Below, piece by piece: positions 4,352 through 13,197 of a stretch of DNA of 39,672 nt. The notes below the pieces were generated by a model that was not told the DNA's origin, did no database searches, and saw nothing but the letters and a program-made list of their open reading frames with translations. Each line of letters opens with the position of its first letter. Within the stretch, counting starts at the first letter, position 1. The stretch covers positions 1-39,672 of the forward strand of contig JACRCP010000197.1 of NCBI GenBank assembly GCA_016218965.1, in the 5' to 3' direction. Position numbers and translations under genes: made by a program. This DNA is from Deltaproteobacteria bacterium. GTDB taxonomy: Bacteria; Myxococcota; SpSt-1050; JACRCP01.

Positions 4352-4834
4352 TTACTCGGACGCCTCGGCGCAAACGCTGAAGCCGAGGGTCGTGTCCGTG
4401 CAAACGGCCGGCTCGGTGCAGTCGCCGTCTTCCGTGCAGACCGTCCAGCAGAACATGCCGCCCTGGTCAAGGCACTGCACGCCGACCACGCACTCGGCCG
4501 CCGCACCGCACGCCTCGCCAGCCGCCTTCGTGCCGGCCTCGAAGCAGAAGTTGCCGTCGGCCGTGTAGTAGCAGCCGCCCAAGTCGCACGCGTCGCCGAC
4601 CGTGGTGCACTCGCCGAAGCACTGGGGATCGGAGCCGGTTACTTCAAGGCACTTGCCCTTCACGCCAGCTGCCGTTTCGCACGCATCGCCCGCGGCTGCG
4701 CATTTGGCCGGGGTCTCGCCGCCGGTGCCGATGTCAGCCGCTTCGTCGTCGCCGCAGCCGGCGAAGTAGACGCCCAGGCTGAGCGCGGCGAACACGCCGA
4801 TGATCCACAGAGTCGCTTTCGTTGTCTTGTTCAT
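4352..4834 (-). CDS. Cys-rich lipoprotein, tandem paralogue B
   Basis: 160 aa beginning MNKTTKATLWIIGVF, with lipobox YFAGC. The mature part has two Cys-rich stretches. The first (KCAAAGDACETAAG to CDLGGCYYT) is unique to this copy. The second (CVVGVQCLDQGGMFCWTVC to GFSVCAEAS) is shared with the downstream gene at 3944-4273, at DNA level too, which points to recent tandem duplication. Start ATG 4834 has GGAGGA 4 bases upstream (minus-strand AAGGAGGAACG). A good promoter lies at 4921-4949. Function unknown; probably lipid-anchored and disulfide-rich. Confidence 0.75.
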   Translation of the reverse strand: MNKTTKATLWIIGVFAALSLGVYFAGCGDDEAADIGTGGETPAKCAAAGDACETAAGVKGKCLEVTGSDPQCFGECTTVGDACDLGGCYYTADGNFCFEAGTKAAGEACGAAAECVVGVQCLDQGGMFCWTVCTEDGDCTEPAVCTDTTLGFSVCAEASE

Positions 4835-5245: not shown

Positions 5246-5287
5246 GTTGAAAGGTCAAAGGCACAAGGCGCAGGGCACGAGGCAGAC
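5246..5287 (+). repeat. Degenerate 7-bp periodic repeat at pseudopilin gene start
   Basis: Six consecutive heptads AGTTGAA, AGGTCAA, AGGCACA, AGGCGCA, GGGCACG, AGGCAGA. They lie on the chosen TTG start (5247) of the TadE-like gene. The first unit resembles the starts of the genes at 7988 and 9899. Confidence 0.6.
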
Positions 5288-6356
5288 CGGAACCAGGGGA
5301 CGGGATTCCACTGCCCGCCGCCTGCTCCGGCGACTTGGCCTGACCGGCTCCGCTGTCTTTGACTCGGGCGCCCCGTTCCGCGAGAACGAGCCGGATGCGA
5401 GGCGCCAAGGAACGAGGGACCAAAGCGTACTTCAGGTACGCTGCGGGACCGAGCGACGAAGGCAACAAAGCAGGCGGCCGTTGTCGCGAGAACGGGGCCA
5501 GGCGGCGGTCGAAACCGCGATCATCCTTCCGCTCATGGTCTTCATGGTCCTGGGCATCATCCAGCTCACGCTCATCCAGCAGGCGCGGCTCATGACCGAG
5601 CACGCCGCCTTCAACGCCGCCCGCGCCGGCATCGTCTGGAACGCCAACAACGACAAGATGGTCAACGCGGCGATGATCACCCTCGTCCCGGCGCTGCCGA
5701 TCATGAAAAAAAACGACATCTTCGGCTCGCTCCTGTCGTTTGCCAAATGGGGCCTCATTGCGCAGGCCACGCACCTCACCGACAAGGGCATCGCGACCCT
5801 CCAGGGCTTCGCGCAGCAACTCAACATCCCGCTCAGCGGCATTCCGGACTTGAGCCTGATACAGGTCGAAATGGTCAACCCAAGGCTCGAGAACTGGGAC
5901 AAGGACCTTCCCAGCCAGTGGAACAAAAAAAACGAAATCGACTTTGACGAGGTCTTCCTGGATTCGACCAGCAACGCCGACGCCGAGAAACTCCGGCAGT
6001 TCAACCGGATGACCATCCGCACCCGGTTCCTCTACCCGATGCGGATCCCCTTTGCCAACTGGACGATTCACACCGCCTACATGGCGCAGGTGGCGGGGGT
6101 CCGTCTGACCGGTCCAATTCAAAGGCCCATGCTCCGGGGCGAGCGGTGGAACCAGTCGTCCCGGGCGCTGGACACCATCGAGGGAAACCTCAAGGTCGAT
6201 CCGCTGCAGATGCTTTTTGGCGACAAGGACAGGAATCTCTTGAGCATCTTGTGGCAGCTCCACGACAACGGCCTGTACTTCATCCCGTTGCGGGCGACGT
6301 ATACGATGAGGATGCAGTCCAACATCTTCAAAGACAACCTCAACGAGGGGTTCTAA
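5247..6356 (+). CDS. TadE-like pseudopilin with long basic N-terminal extension
   Basis: The key feature is SRERG, then QAAVETAII LPLMVFMV: a Gly at the cleavage position, Glu at +5 and a hydrophobic helix. This is the class III (Flp/TadE) prepilin pattern cut by a TadV-type peptidase. The extracytoplasmic part is about 260 residues and ends in a second conserved-looking half (YFIPLRATYTMRMQS). The chosen start TTG 5247 has GGAAGG upstream and gives 369 aa with an odd 84-residue Arg-rich leader. TTG 5481 would give a normal 6-residue leader, and then the repeats at 5246-5498 would be untranslated. It is first in a cluster of similar genes; the next start is 11 bp downstream. Role: probably a minor pilin or assembly protein; the exact start is uncertain. 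Confidence 0.7.
   Translation: MKGQRHKAQGTRQTGTRGRDSTARRLLRRLGLTGSAVFDSGAPFRENEPDARRQGTRDQSVLQVRCGTERRRQQSRRPLSRERGQAAVETAIILPLMVFMVLGIIQLTLIQQARLMTEHAAFNAARAGIVWNANNDKMVNAAMITLVPALPIMKKNDIFGSLLSFAKWGLIAQATHLTDKGIATLQGFAQQLNIPLSGIPDLSLIQVEMVNPRLENWDKDLPSQWNKKNEIDFDEVFLDSTSNADAEKLRQFNRMTIRTRFLYPMRIPFANWTIHTAYMAQVAGVRLTGPIQRPMLRGERWNQSSRALDTIEGNLKVDPLQMLFGDKDRNLLSILWQLHDNGLYFIPLRATYTMRMQSNIFKDNLNEGF
5370..5498. repeat. Imperfect inverted-repeat (REP-like) element
   Basis: Outer arms GCCCCGTTCCGCGAGAACG (from 5370) and CGTTGTCGCGAGAACGGGGC (5479-5498) are imperfect inverted copies. The centre has a perfect 7-bp hairpin AGCGTAC-TTCAG-GTACGCT (5424-5442). Half-similar segments flank the hairpin on each side (GAACGAGGGACCAAAG and GGACCGAGCGACGAAG). 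The whole element lies inside the N-terminal part of the TadE-like frame, and its right arm encodes the residues around the prepilin cleavage site. Confidence 0.65.
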
Positions 6357-6366
6357 TGGTGGCTTG

Positions 6367-7944
6367 ATGCTGGGTGTACTGAAAAAACTCCAAAAGGACG
6401 AGCACGGCCAGGCGATAGTCATCGCCGCGGTCGGCATGCTCATCATGGCCATCGGCGTTCTGGCCACCGCTCAGATCGGCTACGCAGTCTACGAAAAGCA
6501 AAAACTCCAGACCATTGCCGACGCGACGGCATACTCGCTCGCCACCATGCAGGCCCGGGCGTACAACTTCTTCGCGTTCACAAACCGCGCCATGGCCGTT
6601 CACTACGTGGCCATGATGCACATGCAGGGGATTATCTCCCAACTGACGCTGATGGAGGCGCTCTTCGGGAGCGTCTCTGATCTGTTCCACGACATTTACA
6701 GCCTCGGGTGCTGCATTCCAAAGTGCTACTGCGCTTGCTGGACCTGGGCCCAGAGCCTGTCGCAGGCGGCGAACGCCGCCAAGCAGGGGATCACCCCGGT
6801 CATCGACGCACTCGACCCGGCGTTCTCACAGGCGACGAGCGCCCTGTTCCAGATCAATCAACAGACCCTCTACCGCTCTCAGCAGGTCTACAAGTACGCC
6901 ATGTACCTGGTAAATGGCACGGGGATGCTCCAGGTCGCCTCTCAGTCAGACCCGGACATCGATGTCGGCGTCTCGCGTCTTGTCTCGGGCGTCATCAACA
7001 TGCTTGTCTGGAGCGGCCTTTTCGACGCCGGTTCCGAAGGGCTCCCGCTGCCCACGGGCGCGGCACCAGACAACCAGAAGGCCCAGCGCATGGCGACGGA
7101 GGTGGCCAACGCGACGCGGGACCCGGCGTATGTCACCTCGCGTTCGATGTCGGGGGGCATCCCGGTCATCGGCTCGCTCGTGGGGGCGACGGCTTCGGGG
7201 ATCCACGGTCAATCCAAGTTCATCACCGACCAGGACCCCAAGTACATCTACCAGAAGGGCTACTATGACAGCGAGCTTGCCGAGGGGATCGCGATGACCT
7301 CGGCCGACACCCTTTCTATCGGGAACATCTCGTCGGGCGGCTTTGACATGAGCAAGCTCTCGGGGTGCGGATCGTTCTTCAGCCCCGAGGTCTCGGTCCA
7401 GCACGCCCCGATGCAGAAAGGGAAACACATCAGGTACAGTCAGCGCACGATGGGGTCGGGATGCGGCGGGCCGCTCTACTGCCCCGAGTACAAGCACAAG
7501 AGCGGCGACCAGAACCACAACAACTGGCAGGGCCCGGCGGCCTACATCTCCCTCAAGCCGGACAATGTCAACGATGCAGGCCATGACTTCGGCCAACACG
7601 GAGTGTTCATCTGGCTCAACAAGAAGACAAAAAAGCTCACACGGGAGTCGCTCACGCAGAAATTCACGCTGCACGCCCCGGGATACACCACGGGGCTTGA
7701 CACCAGGATCGGAGAGAACAGCCTTCTCTCGAAAGCGTCGTTTACGGGTCTCAACGCCATCGCGGCCGCCCAGGTCTACTACCATCGCCCCGGAAACTGG
7801 CGCGAGCAGCCCAATCTGTTCAACCCGTACTGGAGGGCACGTTTGTATCCGACGGCGCAGTTCATCAACAACTGGCTGATAGGCGCGAACGCCTTGCCGC
7901 ACGAGATCAAACAACTTGTCGACGGGTTTCTGCTTATTCACTGA
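6367..7944 (+). CDS. TadG-like pilus assembly protein
   Basis: 525 aa with a short leader KKLQKDEHG, then QAIVIAAVGMLIMAIGVL, a single N-terminal membrane helix, and a following region (YAVYEKQKLQTIADATAYS) typical of TadG/Tad-domain proteins, where the stretch after the helix reads 'LQNAADAAALA'. Unlike its neighbours it has Ile, not Glu, at +5, also usual for TadG types. A cluster of five Cys (115, 116, 120, 122, 124) and later CGG/YCP pairs suggest an oxidised extracytoplasmic domain. Start ATG 6367 is preferred to the TTG just before; the ribosome site is weak, so coupling to the gene ending at 6356 is likely. Probable role: anchoring or assembly of a Flp-type fibre in the envelope. Confidence 0.7.
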   Translation: MLGVLKKLQKDEHGQAIVIAAVGMLIMAIGVLATAQIGYAVYEKQKLQTIADATAYSLATMQARAYNFFAFTNRAMAVHYVAMMHMQGIISQLTLMEALFGSVSDLFHDIYSLGCCIPKCYCACWTWAQSLSQAANAAKQGITPVIDALDPAFSQATSALFQINQQTLYRSQQVYKYAMYLVNGTGMLQVASQSDPDIDVGVSRLVSGVINMLVWSGLFDAGSEGLPLPTGAAPDNQKAQRMATEVANATRDPAYVTSRSMSGGIPVIGSLVGATASGIHGQSKFITDQDPKYIYQKGYYDSELAEGIAMTSADTLSIGNISSGGFDMSKLSGCGSFFSPEVSVQHAPMQKGKHIRYSQRTMGSGCGGPLYCPEYKHKSGDQNHNNWQGPAAYISLKPDNVNDAGHDFGQHGVFIWLNKKTKKLTRESLTQKFTLHAPGYTTGLDTRIGENSLLSKASFTGLNAIAAAQVYYHRPGNWREQPNLFNPYWRARLYPTAQFINNWLIGANALPHEIKQLVDGFLLIH

Positions 7945-7964
7945 TGAAAGGCCGGGCGTGACAC

Positions 7965-8006
7965 GGTCGAAGGCCGAAGGTTGAAAGATGAGAGATCAAA
8001 GACAAG
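7965..8006 (+). repeat. Degenerate 7-bp periodic repeat spanning a pseudopilin start codon
   Basis: Six heptads: GGTCGAA, GGCCGAA, GGTTGAA, AGATGAG, AGATCAA, AGACAAG. The ATG at 7988 lies inside the fourth unit, and the purine-rich unit before it (GAAGG) is the best available ribosome site. Copy-number change upstream would alter that site; downstream it would shift frame. Confidence 0.65.
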
Positions 8007-9037
8007 ACGATGAGCGCGGCGCCGCGGTGCTTGAGTTTGCCATCATCACCGGCGTGCTGGCCCTGCTCGTGTTCTGGAGCCACTTCTTCTTCGACATCAT
8101 CCAGGTCCGGATGAAGACCCTCGAGGCGGCCCGGACTTCCCTGTTTGAAATGACGGCCTATCCCCTCTCGGACTTCAATCAGGGTTCGCAGACCGCGCAC
8201 GACCGCAGATACAAGGATGCGGCGGACGTCATCGCAGAGGACATCCGAAAGATCTACGGCACCGACCTTGACTCGGCATACAAGTTCAAAAAAACCAAGA
8301 TCGAGACGAAGCGCCTCAGTCTGGACAGCCTGACGGTCGGGTCCGTCAAGCTCACAAACGGAACGCCGTACTCCATGCAGTTCATGAACCTCCTGAACAT
8401 GATCCTCCAACTCCCCGCCTACAAATCGTTCAACAAAAAGGGGTTCGTCTCGGCCGAGATCAAGTCGGACATCACATCGAGCTTTGTCCCGACGGAGTTC
8501 AAGTTCGGCAAGAGTTTCCGGGTCAGGCCGCTCACCAAGCACATGGGACAGAAATTCTACATGCTGGTCGACCCGTGGAAGCTCGAGGACGGGTGCAATG
8601 TCATTCCACCCGGCGACTACGACACCACGAACGGCCCGCTTGGCACGTGCACAAACGCCAGTGGCGGGGGTGAGTCACTTCTGCACAAGCAGGTCGGCCG
8701 TCTCTCTTACCTGGGATTCTCCGCCCCCGCGCTCGGCGGCGCCGGAAACATCCTCGGCGCCGGCGCCATGAACCCGTTTGCGGTGCGGGTGGCCTCCGTC
8801 AACTTCCTCGAGGACTCGACTTCCGGGAAAGACGGCCGCAGCAAACTGTCGGTCGATGGCGGCGAGGACCAGTTTTACACCGCCCCGTACTGCAACGAGG
8901 GAGGCATAGGCGGTGCGGGCCCGTGCAGCGGCCCGTATCTGGATGCGTTCATGTCGCGCGGGGACCACTTCATGGGATGCCCCAAAGAGCAGTACGACGG
9001 CAAATGGGATTGTGAGTACAAAAAGTTGAATCCGTAG
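7988..9037 (+). CDS. TadE-like pseudopilin
   Basis: 349 aa. The leader MRDQRQDDERG is followed by AAVLEFAIITGVLALLVFW: Gly11 at the cleavage site, Glu16 at +5 and Phe at +6, matching class III prepilins. A large extracytoplasmic domain follows, rich in Cys near the end (GCNVIPPGDY, GTCTNASGGG, YCNEGG, GPCSG, GCPKEQ, DCEYK), which probably form disulfides. It follows the TadG-like gene after 43 bp of heptad repeat that also carries the start codon. Too large for a major Flp pilin, so a minor pilin or adhesin-like tip subunit is the best guess. Confidence 0.7.
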   Translation: MRDQRQDDERGAAVLEFAIITGVLALLVFWSHFFFDIIQVRMKTLEAARTSLFEMTAYPLSDFNQGSQTAHDRRYKDAADVIAEDIRKIYGTDLDSAYKFKKTKIETKRLSLDSLTVGSVKLTNGTPYSMQFMNLLNMILQLPAYKSFNKKGFVSAEIKSDITSSFVPTEFKFGKSFRVRPLTKHMGQKFYMLVDPWKLEDGCNVIPPGDYDTTNGPLGTCTNASGGGESLLHKQVGRLSYLGFSAPALGGAGNILGAGAMNPFAVRVASVNFLEDSTSGKDGRSKLSVDGGEDQFYTAPYCNEGGIGGAGPCSGPYLDAFMSRGDHFMGCPKEQYDGKWDCEYKKLNP

Positions 9038-9080
9038 ATTGCGGGTCTTGCCCGCGGGAAAAGGGCACGGGGCATCGGCG

Positions 9081-9902
9081 ATGGAGAGGGACAAACAATT
9101 GAACGCACAAGAACGGACAGGGTTGCTCCGGACGGCCGGAACCGCCCTCGTAGGCCTTTGCATTGTCTCCGCCGGGCTTCTGCTCGGCGGGGTGCGGCAC
9201 GACCTCGAAGCCGTCGCGGACGGCGACCCGGGGGCGCACTACTTTTCGCACGAGATGCCGCGCATGCCGGGCGCGCGGGAGGCTCCGCTGGGGGCGGGGC
9301 TGTCGTTTAACAACATGCCGCTTGAGGTTTCGTTTTTCCAGACCGAAAAGCCCGTGGCCGAAGTGCGGGAGTTCTACCTTGCGAAGTTTGCCGCAATGAA
9401 GCTTTCGACATCCGTCACCGACGGCGGCGACGAGGGCGCGGTGGTGTACGGGAACGACACCCAAAAGAAGGTCCAGCGGATCATCTCGATCCAGCGCAGG
9501 GGCGGCGCGACGTTTGTCTTCCCGGCGCAGGTCCCGTTGCTCGCCGTCCCCTCTTTTGCGCCGCCCGAAAACCTTGACGTCGCGCTCATGCCGGGGGCCT
9601 CGGGTTTTGTCCAGATCGGCTCGTCCGACTACGGGCGCCCCTCGCGCCTCATCATGTGGCACCACGAAAAAGAAACCCAAGCCGTGGCCGCGTTTGTCAA
9701 GGACGAGATGAAGCGGCTCGGCTGGGCCGAGGCCGAGGGCGGCGGGCCGTCGCTTATGGGGACGGTGCTCGAGTTTTCGCGCCCCGGCGGGTCCGCCACG
9801 TTCACGGTCTTCAGGCAGAAGACCGAAGGTCCGACGTCGGTCGTGGCGAACGTCCAGGGGCGGGCAGCTTTCGACTCGCGCCCGACGACCGGTGAAAGAT
9901 GA
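9081..9902 (+). CDS. Membrane-anchored protein of the pseudopilin cluster
   Basis: 273 aa; start ATG 9081 chosen over TTG 9039 because it gives a standard N-in signal anchor (TALVGLCIVSAGLLLGGV, residues about 20-37). The rest is predicted outside the cytoplasm, with no recognised domain: repeated beta-like segments (VSFFQTEKPVAEVREFYLAKF, VVYGNDTQKKVQRIISI, SATFTVFRQ). The AEVREFYLAKF piece resembles segments in small secreted proteins that act on trans-envelope complexes, but this is weak. Its stop overlaps the start of the Flp-like gene at 9899 (ATGA), so the two are coupled. A structural or assembly partner of the pilins is inferred from position only. Confidence 0.6.
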   Translation: MERDKQLNAQERTGLLRTAGTALVGLCIVSAGLLLGGVRHDLEAVADGDPGAHYFSHEMPRMPGAREAPLGAGLSFNNMPLEVSFFQTEKPVAEVREFYLAKFAAMKLSTSVTDGGDEGAVVYGNDTQKKVQRIISIQRRGGATFVFPAQVPLLAVPSFAPPENLDVALMPGASGFVQIGSSDYGRPSRLIMWHHEKETQAVAAFVKDEMKRLGWAEAEGGGPSLMGTVLEFSRPGGSATFTVFRQKTEGPTSVVANVQGRAAFDSRPTTGER

Positions 9903-10147
9903 CGACCGGACAGAAACAATCGACACCGTGCTTTCGACTCTCGGCTCGCGCCTCGTGCCTCGCGCCTCGTACCTCGCGCCTCGCCGCCGGCGAGCGCGGC
10001 CAAGCGATGGCGGAGTACGCCATCATCTCCTTTGCTCTCCTGGTCAGTTCCATCACCCTCGGCCACTTCTTCCTCCCGGTCCTCATGGACGCATACCAGT
10101 TCTACTTTGACCAGTTCTACTTCATGCTGAACCTCCCCATTCCGTGA
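9899..10147 (+). CDS. Flp-type pilin-like protein
   Basis: 82 aa, the only gene here of Flp-pilin size. GERG at 31-34 is followed by QAMAEYAIISFALLV, so cutting after Gly34 leaves Glu at +5 and Tyr at +6, the exact Flp signature. The mature part is about 48 residues: one hydrophobic helix and an aromatic tail (YQFYFDQFYFML). The leader of 34 residues is long for this family and is encoded largely by a 7-bp repeat (9931-9986). The start overlaps the stop of the previous gene, and its own stop overlaps the next start (GTGA). It is the best candidate for the major fibre subunit, though no TadA ATPase, TadB/C or peptidase gene is in view. Confidence 0.7.
   Translation: MTTGQKQSTPCFRLSARASCLAPRTSRLAAGERGQAMAEYAIISFALLVSSITLGHFFLPVLMDAYQFYFDQFYFMLNLPIP
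9931..9986 (+). repeat. Eight-unit 7-bp repeat in the Flp-like leader
   Basis: Heptads CTTTCGA, CTCTCGG, CTCGCGC, CTCGTGC, CTCGCGC, CTCGTAC, CTCGCGC, CTCGCCG. Two matching units (CTTTCGA, CTCGCGC) also occur at 9868-9881, just before the start codon. Translated, the tract forms the Ala/Arg/Leu/Ser-rich leader of the pilin. Confidence 0.75.
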
Positions 10148-10433: not shown

Positions 10434-11147
10434 ATGAAAGCCTCGTACCATGTCGCTTGCACCGTGGCGGCGTTGATGTTTAGCCCGGCCCCGGTTCGTG
10501 CGGAGGGCGAACAGACCTGCACGCTCTATCCGCGGCCAAAGGCGGCCGCGAAGGCCGGCGACTGGGTCGAGTACCGCATGACCGGCAAGGTGCCGGCAAC
10601 GATGCGCATGGCCGTGACCGGAGTCGAGGGCACGGGCGAAAACGCGCTGTACTGGCTCGAAGTTTCGATGAGCGACGCGTTCCAGAAAGGCGTGGTCAAA
10701 AGCCTGCTTGTAGGCGACCCGCTCACACCAAAAAAGGTCAAGCGCATCATCATGAAGACGGGGTCGACGCCTGCGATGGAGATCCCTCCCTCGATGATCG
10801 CCAAGATCGACCTTGCGAAGAATCCGCTCCAGGCCCAGGGGCCGTGCGCGGCGAACCCGGGCTCAGGCGTCGCTGTCCCCACGGAGGAAAAGGCCGTCAT
10901 CGCCGGCAAGACCGTGGGTGTGCGGGTCTCCCGGGTCGAGCGTGACGGAAAGAAGCTCGTCTTCAAGCACAGCGACGGGGTCCCGCTCACCGGCCTCGTC
11001 TTTGCCGACTTCGGCGCGCAGAAGGTCGAACTCACCGGTTTCGGCCACGACGCCAAAACGCAGATCACCGAAGAGCCCGTCCCGCTCGAGCAGGCAATGC
11101 CGGGAATCACCGACCTGCCTCCCCCGGCAGCCCCGGCAACCCGGTAA
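10434..11147 (+). CDS. Secreted protein of unknown function
   Basis: 237 aa with a type I signal peptide (MKASYHVACTVAALMF, likely cut after PVRA near residue 23). The mature protein starts with a Cys-containing segment (GEQTCTLYPRP) and is otherwise rich in beta-type alternation (DWVEYRMTGKVPATMRMAVTGVEGTG, VGVRVSRVERDGKKLVFKHS). A Pro/Ala tail closes it. A weak AGGGA ribosome site precedes the ATG, and the gene follows the small membrane protein by 11 bp, so it belongs to the same unit. No family recognised; a periplasmic partner of the envelope system is plausible. Confidence 0.65.
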   Translation: MKASYHVACTVAALMFSPAPVRAEGEQTCTLYPRPKAAAKAGDWVEYRMTGKVPATMRMAVTGVEGTGENALYWLEVSMSDAFQKGVVKSLLVGDPLTPKKVKRIIMKTGSTPAMEIPPSMIAKIDLAKNPLQAQGPCAANPGSGVAVPTEEKAVIAGKTVGVRVSRVERDGKKLVFKHSDGVPLTGLVFADFGAQKVELTGFGHDAKTQITEEPVPLEQAMPGITDLPPPAAPATR

Positions 11148-11149
11148 TC

Positions 11150-11178
11150 TTGCAACCCCCATTCGATTCTGTTACTTT
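11150..11178 (+). promoter_or_regulatory. Probable promoter of the 11221 lipoprotein gene
   Basis: -35 TTGCAA (11150-11155), 17-bp spacer, -10 TACTTT (11173-11178), giving a leader of about 36 bases that includes a GGAGG ribosome site. This suggests the lipoprotein is at least partly expressed on its own, although it follows the cluster directly. Confidence 0.45.
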
Positions 11179-11220
11179 TTCACTGTTGGGCGGGTTTCGC
11201 GGCACATCCGGAGGGTCACG

Positions 11221-13197
11221 GTGAACACATCAATACGATGGCTCGCTTTGCCGGTCGCGGCGATTGTGGCCGGGTCTTTTTGCGCGTGCTCCGAGGACAC
11301 GTTCGAGTCGATCCCGCCGGACATCTCGATCTACGAGAGCGACCCCTCGACCGAGATGCAAAAACTCGACTTCGGCTCGGTGCCCGAAAGAATCCCCTTC
11401 CGCAAGACGTTCTTCGTCCGAAACAAGATCGAGCACGCGATGGATCTCACGTTTTCGCTTTCGCTTCTGGACACGTCGGGAAAGCCGGCCTCGGGCAACA
11501 CAGTGACGTTCTCGCCCGCCGAGGGCATTGTCAAGGGCGGCGAGGCGATCCCTGTGACGGCCACCTTCACCCCGCCGGCGGCGCAGCAGTACACGTTCAA
11601 GATGCACGTCGAGACCAACGCCCGCACGACCTCAAAGAAGAAGTTCGACATCCCCGTCGCCGGGAGCGGGATGACGCCCAAGATCGTCATCGAGATCGAC
11701 GGGGACGTCCCCGAGGACCCCGTTCTCGACTTCGGCGACGTCTACGTCTACTCGTCGCTCCCGAAGGAGGCAACGGTCAGAAACGACGGGACCGGCACGC
11801 TCACAATATCGAGCGTCTCCGCGAGCAATACGGAAGGCGCATTCCAGATCCTCGACCCGCCGCTCCCCACGGCAGAAAACCCCATCAAGATCGAGCCGAA
11901 GAAGTCCGTCCTGTTCACCGTGACCTTCTCGCCGGTTGCCGTGCAGGCGTACAAGGGGACGTTCACGCTCAACAACGACGACGCGACCAACCGCGCCGCG
12001 TCCATAGAGGTTCTGGGCAACGGGGTCCCCACCCCGGTCAACGGCCCGCCCGTGGCCAACGTGGTCTGCCCCGAGGGCGGGATCATGCTTCCCGTCCCCG
12101 GCGAGGTCGAGCTTGACGGCACCGGCTCGACCGACAAGGACGGGGACATCCTCACGTACAAGTGGTCCCTCAAGGAGAACATGGCCCCCGAGGGGAGCGA
12201 CTACTGCTTCGACTGCAACCGCGGCCAGCTCACGCACCACAAGGAGAGCAACAAGGACAAGCCGAAGTTCTTCGGCGACCTCGTCGGCGACTACACGGTG
12301 CAGTTAATCGTGAACGACGGGCACAACCACGACAGCGACCCGCCCGCCGAGTGTGTCATCCACGGCTACGCCGCCCAGCAGCTCCACATCGAGCTCCTCT
12401 GGGACAACCCGGTGACCGACGTCGACCTCCACCTCGTGAACTTCAGCGACGGGATCGTCTTCAACCCCGCCGAGACCGGCGGGCTCTTCACCTGCCCCTG
12501 CGACTGCAACACCAACCGCAACCGCAACCCCGACTGGGGCCTCCGCATCCCGTACGTCGCGGGCTGCACGAATCCCAACGGGAACGCTTGCGACCTCGAG
12601 TGCTCACCGACCTTCGACCAGTCGTGCAAGATCGACCCCAACGACCCCGCGACCGCCCGCAACCCCGACTGCTACAAGGGCGGCGACAGGTGCGTGCTCA
12701 CGTGCGAGCCCGACGCGGCCGATCAGTTCCTTGAGGACGCCCAGGACGACAACCCGAAGCTCGACATCGACGACACCAAGGGCTATGGCCCCGAGAACAT
12801 CAACATCGTCAAACCCTCCGAAGGCCTCTACCGGATCTTCGTACACTACTTCGACGACTACGGCACCGGCAACACCGGCTCCACCGTGCGGCTGTACATC
12901 AACGGCAAAACGAAGCCCGAGTGGAAGTTCGGTCCCAAGGTTTTGTCCAACGGCGGCCAGCTCTGGGAGGTCGCGCTGGTCCAATGGCCGGCGGACGACA
13001 ACGACGACGCGATCGTCACCGCGGTCGACGCCGTGCGCGACGCCAGCCCCGTCATCGGCGCGACGTGCAGGCTCCCGACGGACGGCGGCACCGATGACGC
13101 GGCCGCCGATGCCGCGGCTGATTCGGGCGCCGACGCCGGCACACCCGACGCCGAAGTGCCCGATGCCGGGACCGCCGACGCGGGCGCCGCAGACTGA
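11221..13197 (+). CDS. Large lipoprotein with Hydin-like, PKD and YfaP-like domains
   Basis: 658 aa from GTG 11221 (GGAGG at 11209-11213). The signal ends in a Cys pair (SFCAC), consistent with a lipobox. Residues about 45-155 and 165-270 are two immunoglobulin-like ASH/Hydin-type domains (LDFGSVPERIPFRKTFFVRN; LDFGDVYVYSSLPKEATVRN). Residues about 275-375 resemble a PKD domain (VELDGTGSTDKDGDILTYKW). Residues about 385-595 start LLWDNPVTDVDLHLV and end with FDDYGTGNTGSTVRLYI, typical of YfaP/DUF2135-like modules, with a Cys-rich insertion. The tail is a D/A/G low-complexity stretch. It is probably a cell-surface or outer-membrane-anchored scaffold; partner unknown. Confidence 0.75.
   Translation: MNTSIRWLALPVAAIVAGSFCACSEDTFESIPPDISIYESDPSTEMQKLDFGSVPERIPFRKTFFVRNKIEHAMDLTFSLSLLDTSGKPASGNTVTFSPAEGIVKGGEAIPVTATFTPPAAQQYTFKMHVETNARTTSKKKFDIPVAGSGMTPKIVIEIDGDVPEDPVLDFGDVYVYSSLPKEATVRNDGTGTLTISSVSASNTEGAFQILDPPLPTAENPIKIEPKKSVLFTVTFSPVAVQAYKGTFTLNNDDATNRAASIEVLGNGVPTPVNGPPVANVVCPEGGIMLPVPGEVELDGTGSTDKDGDILTYKWSLKENMAPEGSDYCFDCNRGQLTHHKESNKDKPKFFGDLVGDYTVQLIVNDGHNHDSDPPAECVIHGYAAQQLHIELLWDNPVTDVDLHLVNFSDGIVFNPAETGGLFTCPCDCNTNRNRNPDWGLRIPYVAGCTNPNGNACDLECSPTFDQSCKIDPNDPATARNPDCYKGGDRCVLTCEPDAADQFLEDAQDDNPKLDIDDTKGYGPENINIVKPSEGLYRIFVHYFDDYGTGNTGSTVRLYINGKTKPEWKFGPKVLSNGGQLWEVALVQWPADDNDDAIVTAVDAVRDASPVIGATCRLPTDGGTDDAAADAAADSGADAGTPDAEVPDAGTADAGAAD

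Follow-up and report, generated by a model that had tools for sequence, protein, structure and literature searches.

Heptanucleotide arrays at a Tad pilus locus as probable members of a genome-wide, sequence-diverse repeat population

The Tad pilus genes of a deltaproteobacterium of the phylum Myxococcota are accompanied, at three places, by runs of imperfect 7-bp units, which raise the question of whether these repeats form a phase-variable switch of a surface structure or belong to something wider. An earlier note on this locus had proposed such a switch, with an STRR-like repeat family that invades gene starts as its other option. Off-frame leader repeats of this kind need to be judged against the repeat background of their own genome. 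We analyzed the window, i.e., the whole 39,672-nucleotide contig (C88) that holds the locus, together with a sample of 1.66 Mb (26%) of the source genome (6.29 Mb in 418 contigs, 94.7% complete, with 0.28% contamination). The reading we favor, with a probability of roughly 0.75, is that the three tracts belong, as ordinary cases, to a set of short, imperfect heptanucleotide arrays found throughout the genome, without a dedicated pilus switch, and it removes a tempting phase-variation claim for the Tad pilus.

Heptad tracts and gene starts at the Tad locus

When the window was scanned for every period from 4 to 14, with at least 20 of 28 lag-7 self-matches as the threshold for a tract, exactly three period-7 tracts emerged over its whole length (Table 1). 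They lie at the three pilus genes where heptad runs had originally been placed, and they stand above chance. Tandem Repeats Finder reports tract 1 weakly, misses tract 2 at its thresholds and detects tract 3 clearly, the last scoring 59 at period 7 and 71 at period 14, with the 14-bp period at 96%. The unit sequence had been described as differing between the genes; however, tracts 1 and 3 appear to represent one unit family, AAGGC/GAGGC, on opposite strands. A TGAAAG(A/G)T core said to be shared by all three starts is indeed present at each of them, at 5248, 7982 (given earlier as 7981) and 9893, with no further site on either strand of the window. Across the 1.66 Mb it is not enriched (40 occurrences versus ~31 expected), and, since the motif was also derived from these same three sites, we give it little weight.

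Table 1. Heptad tracts, Tad genes and the hairpin element in the window
Feature	Position	Strand	Description
Heptad tract 1	5250..5284	+	Units AAAGGTC AAAGGCA CAAGGCG CAGGGCA CGAGGCA; self-match 20/28; G-rich on + strand; in the gap separating divergent gene 4352-4834 (-) from tadE
Hairpin, 129 nt	~5368-5499	+	Strong, quasi-palindromic; separates tract 1 from the tadE pilin-like domain
tadE-like gene	5481..6356	+	Alternative start TTG 5481, more plausible; start in the earlier note TTG 5247
tadG-like gene	6364..7944	+	Tad, PF13400, Pfam 1.2e-5; homologues in 17/29 relatives
Heptad tract 2	7965..8002	+	Units GGTCGAA GGCCGAA GGTTGAA AGATGAG AGATCAA AGA; self-match 21/28
Second TadE-like pseudopilin gene	7988..9037	+	Leader MRDQRQDDERG, followed by AAVLEF; weak TadE match 8018-8134
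Flp-like prepilin gene	9899..10147	+	ATG overlaps upstream TGA; orthologues in G001, G002 and G020
Heptad tract 3	9931..9984	-	CGAGGCR family; G-rich on - strand; within the Flp leader coding region

The tracts had been located at start codons or in leader-coding regions, which is correct for tracts 2 and 3 and probably incorrect for tract 1. Translation from TTG 5247 would give TadE a leader of ~80 aa, with the TadE domain (Pfam PF07811, 3.7e-11) beginning only at residue 84 of this reading, and codon usage lends coding support to tadE only further downstream of 5247. The in-frame TTG at 5481 gives the leader LSRERG ahead of QAAVE, and the orthologues in two genomes of the same order, G001 and G002, have leaders of ~14 aa (MLRGIKNFIRSNDAQ). 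A TadE start at 5247 thus looks doubtful. Given the position of the domain and the short leader offered by TTG 5481, tract 1 is probably noncoding and ~200 bp upstream of the functional start. Tract 2 begins ~20 nt past the tadG stop and spans the ATG of the second TadE-like gene, whose orthologues in G001 and G002 have leaders of ~10 aa. Only in the Flp gene, which has no alternative in-frame start besides its ATG, is a tract clearly inside a translated leader: this leader is 34 aa long, with ~18 aa encoded by tract 3, as against ~13 aa in the Flp proteins of G001 and G002, and the tract constitutes most of the extra length.

A single TadE locus scores above the family cut-off in the source genome. 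Around the related Tad genes of seven other genomes no heptad tract was found, and the pilus tracts are not conserved, the Tad operons of the nearest sampled genomes being without them. Also beside the Tad genes of the window is a large ORF (10813-13197, + strand) with matches to HYDIN/CFA65-like Ig, ASH and PKD domains.

Heptad arrays across the genome

Period-7 tracts are abundant in the 1.66-Mb sample, numbering 139, whereas periods 8, 10, 11, 13 and 16 yield only 10, 3, 4, 6 and 4, respectively. Multiples of three show higher counts as well (50-89 tracts per period), with only 4-18 of those between genes, an excess that is expected of coding repeats. According to gene calls from a home-made codon-usage finder with uncertain starts (1246 genes, 86% coding), the midpoints of 87 of the 139 heptad tracts lie between genes, in DNA that makes up 14% of the sample, and by the same calls the other 52 lie inside genes. 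Gaps of at least 45 bp hold 68 heptad tracts versus a mean of 0.15 in 20 Markov-2 simulations; a chance origin of the tracts is excluded genome-wide.

The contigs that were not picked for repeats carry one tract per 13.9 kb, which translates to an estimated ~450 per genome; at this density of about one per 14 kb, the three tracts in the 39.7 kb of the window are ordinary. The earlier contention that repeats at three members of one system are unlikely to be chance holds for the repeats themselves (68 versus 0.15), but their clustering is unexceptional: besides the window, three tracts fall within 5 kb at no fewer than nine places in the sample. Counted as overlapping triples within 5 kb, there are 18, at about a dozen places, which rules out clustering specific to the pilus. 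Denser than the pilus locus is a 3.3-kb cluster in which four gene junctions in a row carry a tract (L047:4000-7256); it surrounds a FecR-domain gene and a gene for an AI-2E-family transporter.

The genes adjoining the tracts, as classified by Pfam, are diverse, and no concentration at surface or adaptive genes was found among them: they include ThiG, thioesterase, FecR, AI-2E transporter, thiolase, kinase, ABC ATPase, epimerase, sigma-54 activator, phosphoesterase, histidine kinase and PHP-domain genes. The same kind of tract is hence distributed across genes unrelated to pili, a finding that the earlier note itself had named as speaking against its proposal. An association specific to pseudopilins was likewise rejected, as the type IV pilin-like family PF07963 has eight matches, the seven of which on contig C22 show no tract at their starts; the remaining match, on C325, has two tracts nearby. 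Downstream of the PF07963 genes of C22, a gene with a GspK-like N-terminus (MRHESAQGKRRKERGVALLVVM; G000:C22:37652-38971, - strand) has its start codon inside a heptad tract, and the stop of the neighboring gene lies in this tract as well. As a lead, tracts outside the window that overlap a called start belong to genes with a hydrophobic N-terminus in 6 of 7 cases versus 32% of genes (one-sided P = 0.005), in a test that was devised post hoc, weakens with the limit on start extension (P = 0.04 at 20 aa and 0.14 at 40 aa) and had an earlier, looser version that was not significant (P = 0.11-0.27); such a bias would fit a tolerance of leader changes.

While the unit length is fixed at 7, the unit sequence is very diverse. 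The 139 tracts have 74 distinct consensus units and no single characteristic unit such as GGGNATC or TAACTGA; they can be grouped into the families GAGGCNN (34), GGGATTT (12), GGCTGAW (12), GAGTCGT (11), GGCCAGT (10) and AATTCGG (5), with 55 others. Pairs of identical units (154 versus 13) and of units one step apart (589 versus 233) are commoner than among random intergenic 7-mers, and the units are thus related to each other beyond chance. Over the whole genome, the GAGGCR unit pattern has 232 matches versus 14 for the reversed-pattern control, and a threefold GGGATTT pattern 88 versus 0. Contig C412 has at least five separate near-perfect GGGATTT arrays, more than any other contig among the matches listed. 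Both the GAGGCR unit and the GGGATTT pattern are absent from two genomes of the same order, and a single GGGATTT match was found in one other genome sampled from the phylum, which points to a lineage-specific richness in heptads. In a 164-kb sample, G001 has two heptad tracts of another unit.

Stop codons and the origin of the arrays

The arrays are anchored at the ends of genes. Of the 58 tracts between co-directional genes, 37 are no more than 15 nt away from the upstream stop versus 19.5 expected under uniform placement, a count reached in none of 100,000 simulations, whereas 14 tracts are equally close to a called start. Of the stop-proximal tracts, 34 of 37 are G-rich on the sense strand, whereas the tracts further from the stop split 8 to 11. 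Lag-7 identity, averaged for 48 genes that have a G-rich tract, stays at ~0.25-0.28 until 8 nt before the stop, is 0.35 over the last 7 nt, and then jumps to 0.60 in the first unit, which opens with the stop, and to 0.75-0.77 over the next two; hence, the arrays tend to begin at the stop codon. Past the native stop, further stop triplets appear at spacings that are multiples of 7. Capture of the stop by an ORF reading into a pre-existing tract was rejected, as it predicts periodicity upstream, where identity is 0.28 at -14 to -8 and 0.35 at -7 to -1. Sense-strand G-rich placement after or over a stop is found genome-wide; in the window, only tract 2, at 20 nt, approaches it. Inverted partner arrays occur within 150 bp of 16 of the 139 tracts versus 1 in the control. 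Three inverted pairs lying 17-43 bp apart (L032:2427-2510, C384:6546-6644 and C19:20810-20890) are able to form imperfect hairpins.

This combination of exact period-7 excess, noncoding bias and stop-proximal, sense G-rich placement is that of dispersed intergenic heptamer arrays, for which there are close precedents. The GGGNATC and GGGGA(C/T)T heptamers of Xanthomonas and Nostoc (Rehm et al. 2015, PMC4692102) are over-represented in noncoding DNA, lie on the coding strand mostly within 50 bp of a stop or overlapping it, and include some inverted pairs; they have no exclusive link to surface genes, 83% of them stay in the same gene context when two Xanthomonas genomes are compared, and a role in phase variation was judged unlikely (PMC4692102). 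The present tracts resemble them in genome-wide dispersal, noncoding bias, stop-proximal coding-strand placement, inverted pairs and the GGGATTT class. They differ in that one unit type and a preference for four units characterize the published heptamers, whereas here we find at least six families, to none of which 55 of the 139 tracts belong, and GGG is missing from most units. The TAACTGA direct repeats of marine Beggiatoaceae (MacGregor 2015, PMC4679880) are likewise dispersed intergenic arrays of a few heptamers, in which the units of one strand contain stop codons; unlike the tracts reported here, they have one exact unit, in most cases placed directly ahead of a start codon. Mrazek et al. 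2007, as represented in these two papers (PMC4679880, PMC4692102), found that heptamers ranked first among the longer-unit classes in most genomes surveyed and put forward slippage in steps of 7 nt as their origin; the abundance of heptanucleotide arrays is a likeness to the long simple sequence repeats described there. Our verdict is that the tracts are a sequence-diverse form of these known dispersed heptamer arrays, incidental to the pilus, and that they are set apart by the variety of units within a single genome and by how sharply the arrays set in at the stop codon. The STRR-like family of the earlier note was therefore largely right in kind, but the repeats prefer the stop codon of the upstream gene to gene starts, and what they make up is a population of many unit sequences with only the 7-nt length in common.

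As to their origin, duplication in 7-nt steps, through replication slippage or misalignment, most likely creates and enlarges the arrays, which would persist mainly where coding constraint is low while decaying through substitution; we infer both this origin and the near-neutrality of the arrays. Their commonest site is directly after a stop, in sense orientation, with the stop within the first unit. At tight gene junctions, such as those of the Tad operon, an array can extend into the start of the next gene, an intrusion that a protein whose N-terminal leader is cleaved off should tolerate, and the Flp leader has probably been lengthened in this manner. Two observations sit uneasily with this proposal, namely that all three tracts of the window are in one operon and that slippage alone does not account for arrays starting at the stop codon.

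On account of the latter, a function in the 3' regions of genes is possible, if improbable. Here, sense G-rich heptads would act in the transcript, with proposed roles in termination or ribosome recycling, in mRNA stability, or in the formation of a G-quadruplex or hairpin; the tracts at the pilus genes would be decayed or misplaced copies. The strong stop anchoring, the sense orientation and the inverted partner arrays speak for such a function, as does the report of GGGNATC heptads with the same placement, most of them transcribed (PMC4692102). However, the unit sequences are too variable for a single binding site, the GGG runs of a classical quadruplex are found only in the GGGATTT class, and a fail-safe role is not favored, as stops in all three frames follow 11% of the anchored tracts versus 16% of the non-anchored ones. 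A bolder and slightly more tentative conjecture is that a bacterial process copies any 7 nt with which a gene happens to end, seeding at the stop an array whose first unit contains that stop and which grows downstream in 7-nt steps; if true, this would explain the fixed unit length, the gene-specific sequence and the sense G-richness. With a constant unit length and an inconstant sequence, this genome lends itself well to the question of why repeat arrays in bacteria so often step by 7 nt, and the arrays that start at stop codons add to its value for that question.

Phase variation at the pilus tracts is, judging from sequence features, highly unlikely. Under this proposal, gain or loss of one 7-bp leader unit would throw the prepilin out of frame and turn the pilus on or off; as at contingency loci, the unit is not a multiple of three and one tract, that of Flp, is inside the 5' part of the coding sequence of a surface gene. 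No in-frame start follows this tract, and the 14-bp sub-period of tract 3 shows that unit duplication has happened there. Contingency loci, however, have near-perfect, slippable units, whereas the pilus tracts have adjacent-unit identities of 71%, 74% and 79% for tracts 1, 2 and 3 (the 1st, 5th and 19th percentiles of the 139 tracts) and a longest perfect stretch of 12-13 nt, and are poor material for slippage, among the most degenerate tracts of the genome. Moreover, heptad tracts are spread genome-wide beside unrelated housekeeping genes, the orthologous Tad operons are without them, and tract 1 is probably outside coding DNA. Even in Flp, frame arithmetic indicates that after loss of one unit GTG 9892, which has an open frame and precedes the ATG by 7 nt, would share the reading frame of the pilin body, and such a loss need not abolish expression. 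Least probable of all is a mobile repeat family invading gene starts in the strict STRR sense, which would fit dispersed copies on both strands and several related unit families, but not the want of a common unit sequence, the fact that we noticed no conserved flanking element, or the preference for stops over called starts.

A hairpin element upstream of the TadE pilin-like domain

The hairpin that follows tract 1 (Table 1) folds at -72.1 kcal/mol (z = -7.45), which places it in about the top 1% of intergenic windows in the sample. The element (5372..5497) is not a heptad tract and has no match in Rfam. The alternative tadE start, TTG 5481, lies in its 3' arm, which also codes for SRERG, the last residues of the leader. 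Allowing up to 3 mismatches, one part of the hairpin has only two copies in the source genome, with one weaker match in G006. A 47-bp copy at G000:C217:12417-12463 (L124), which is 87% identical to positions 5443-5489 of the window and bounded by GAATCGCG...CGCGATTC, lies between two genes that read like dnaX and ybaB.
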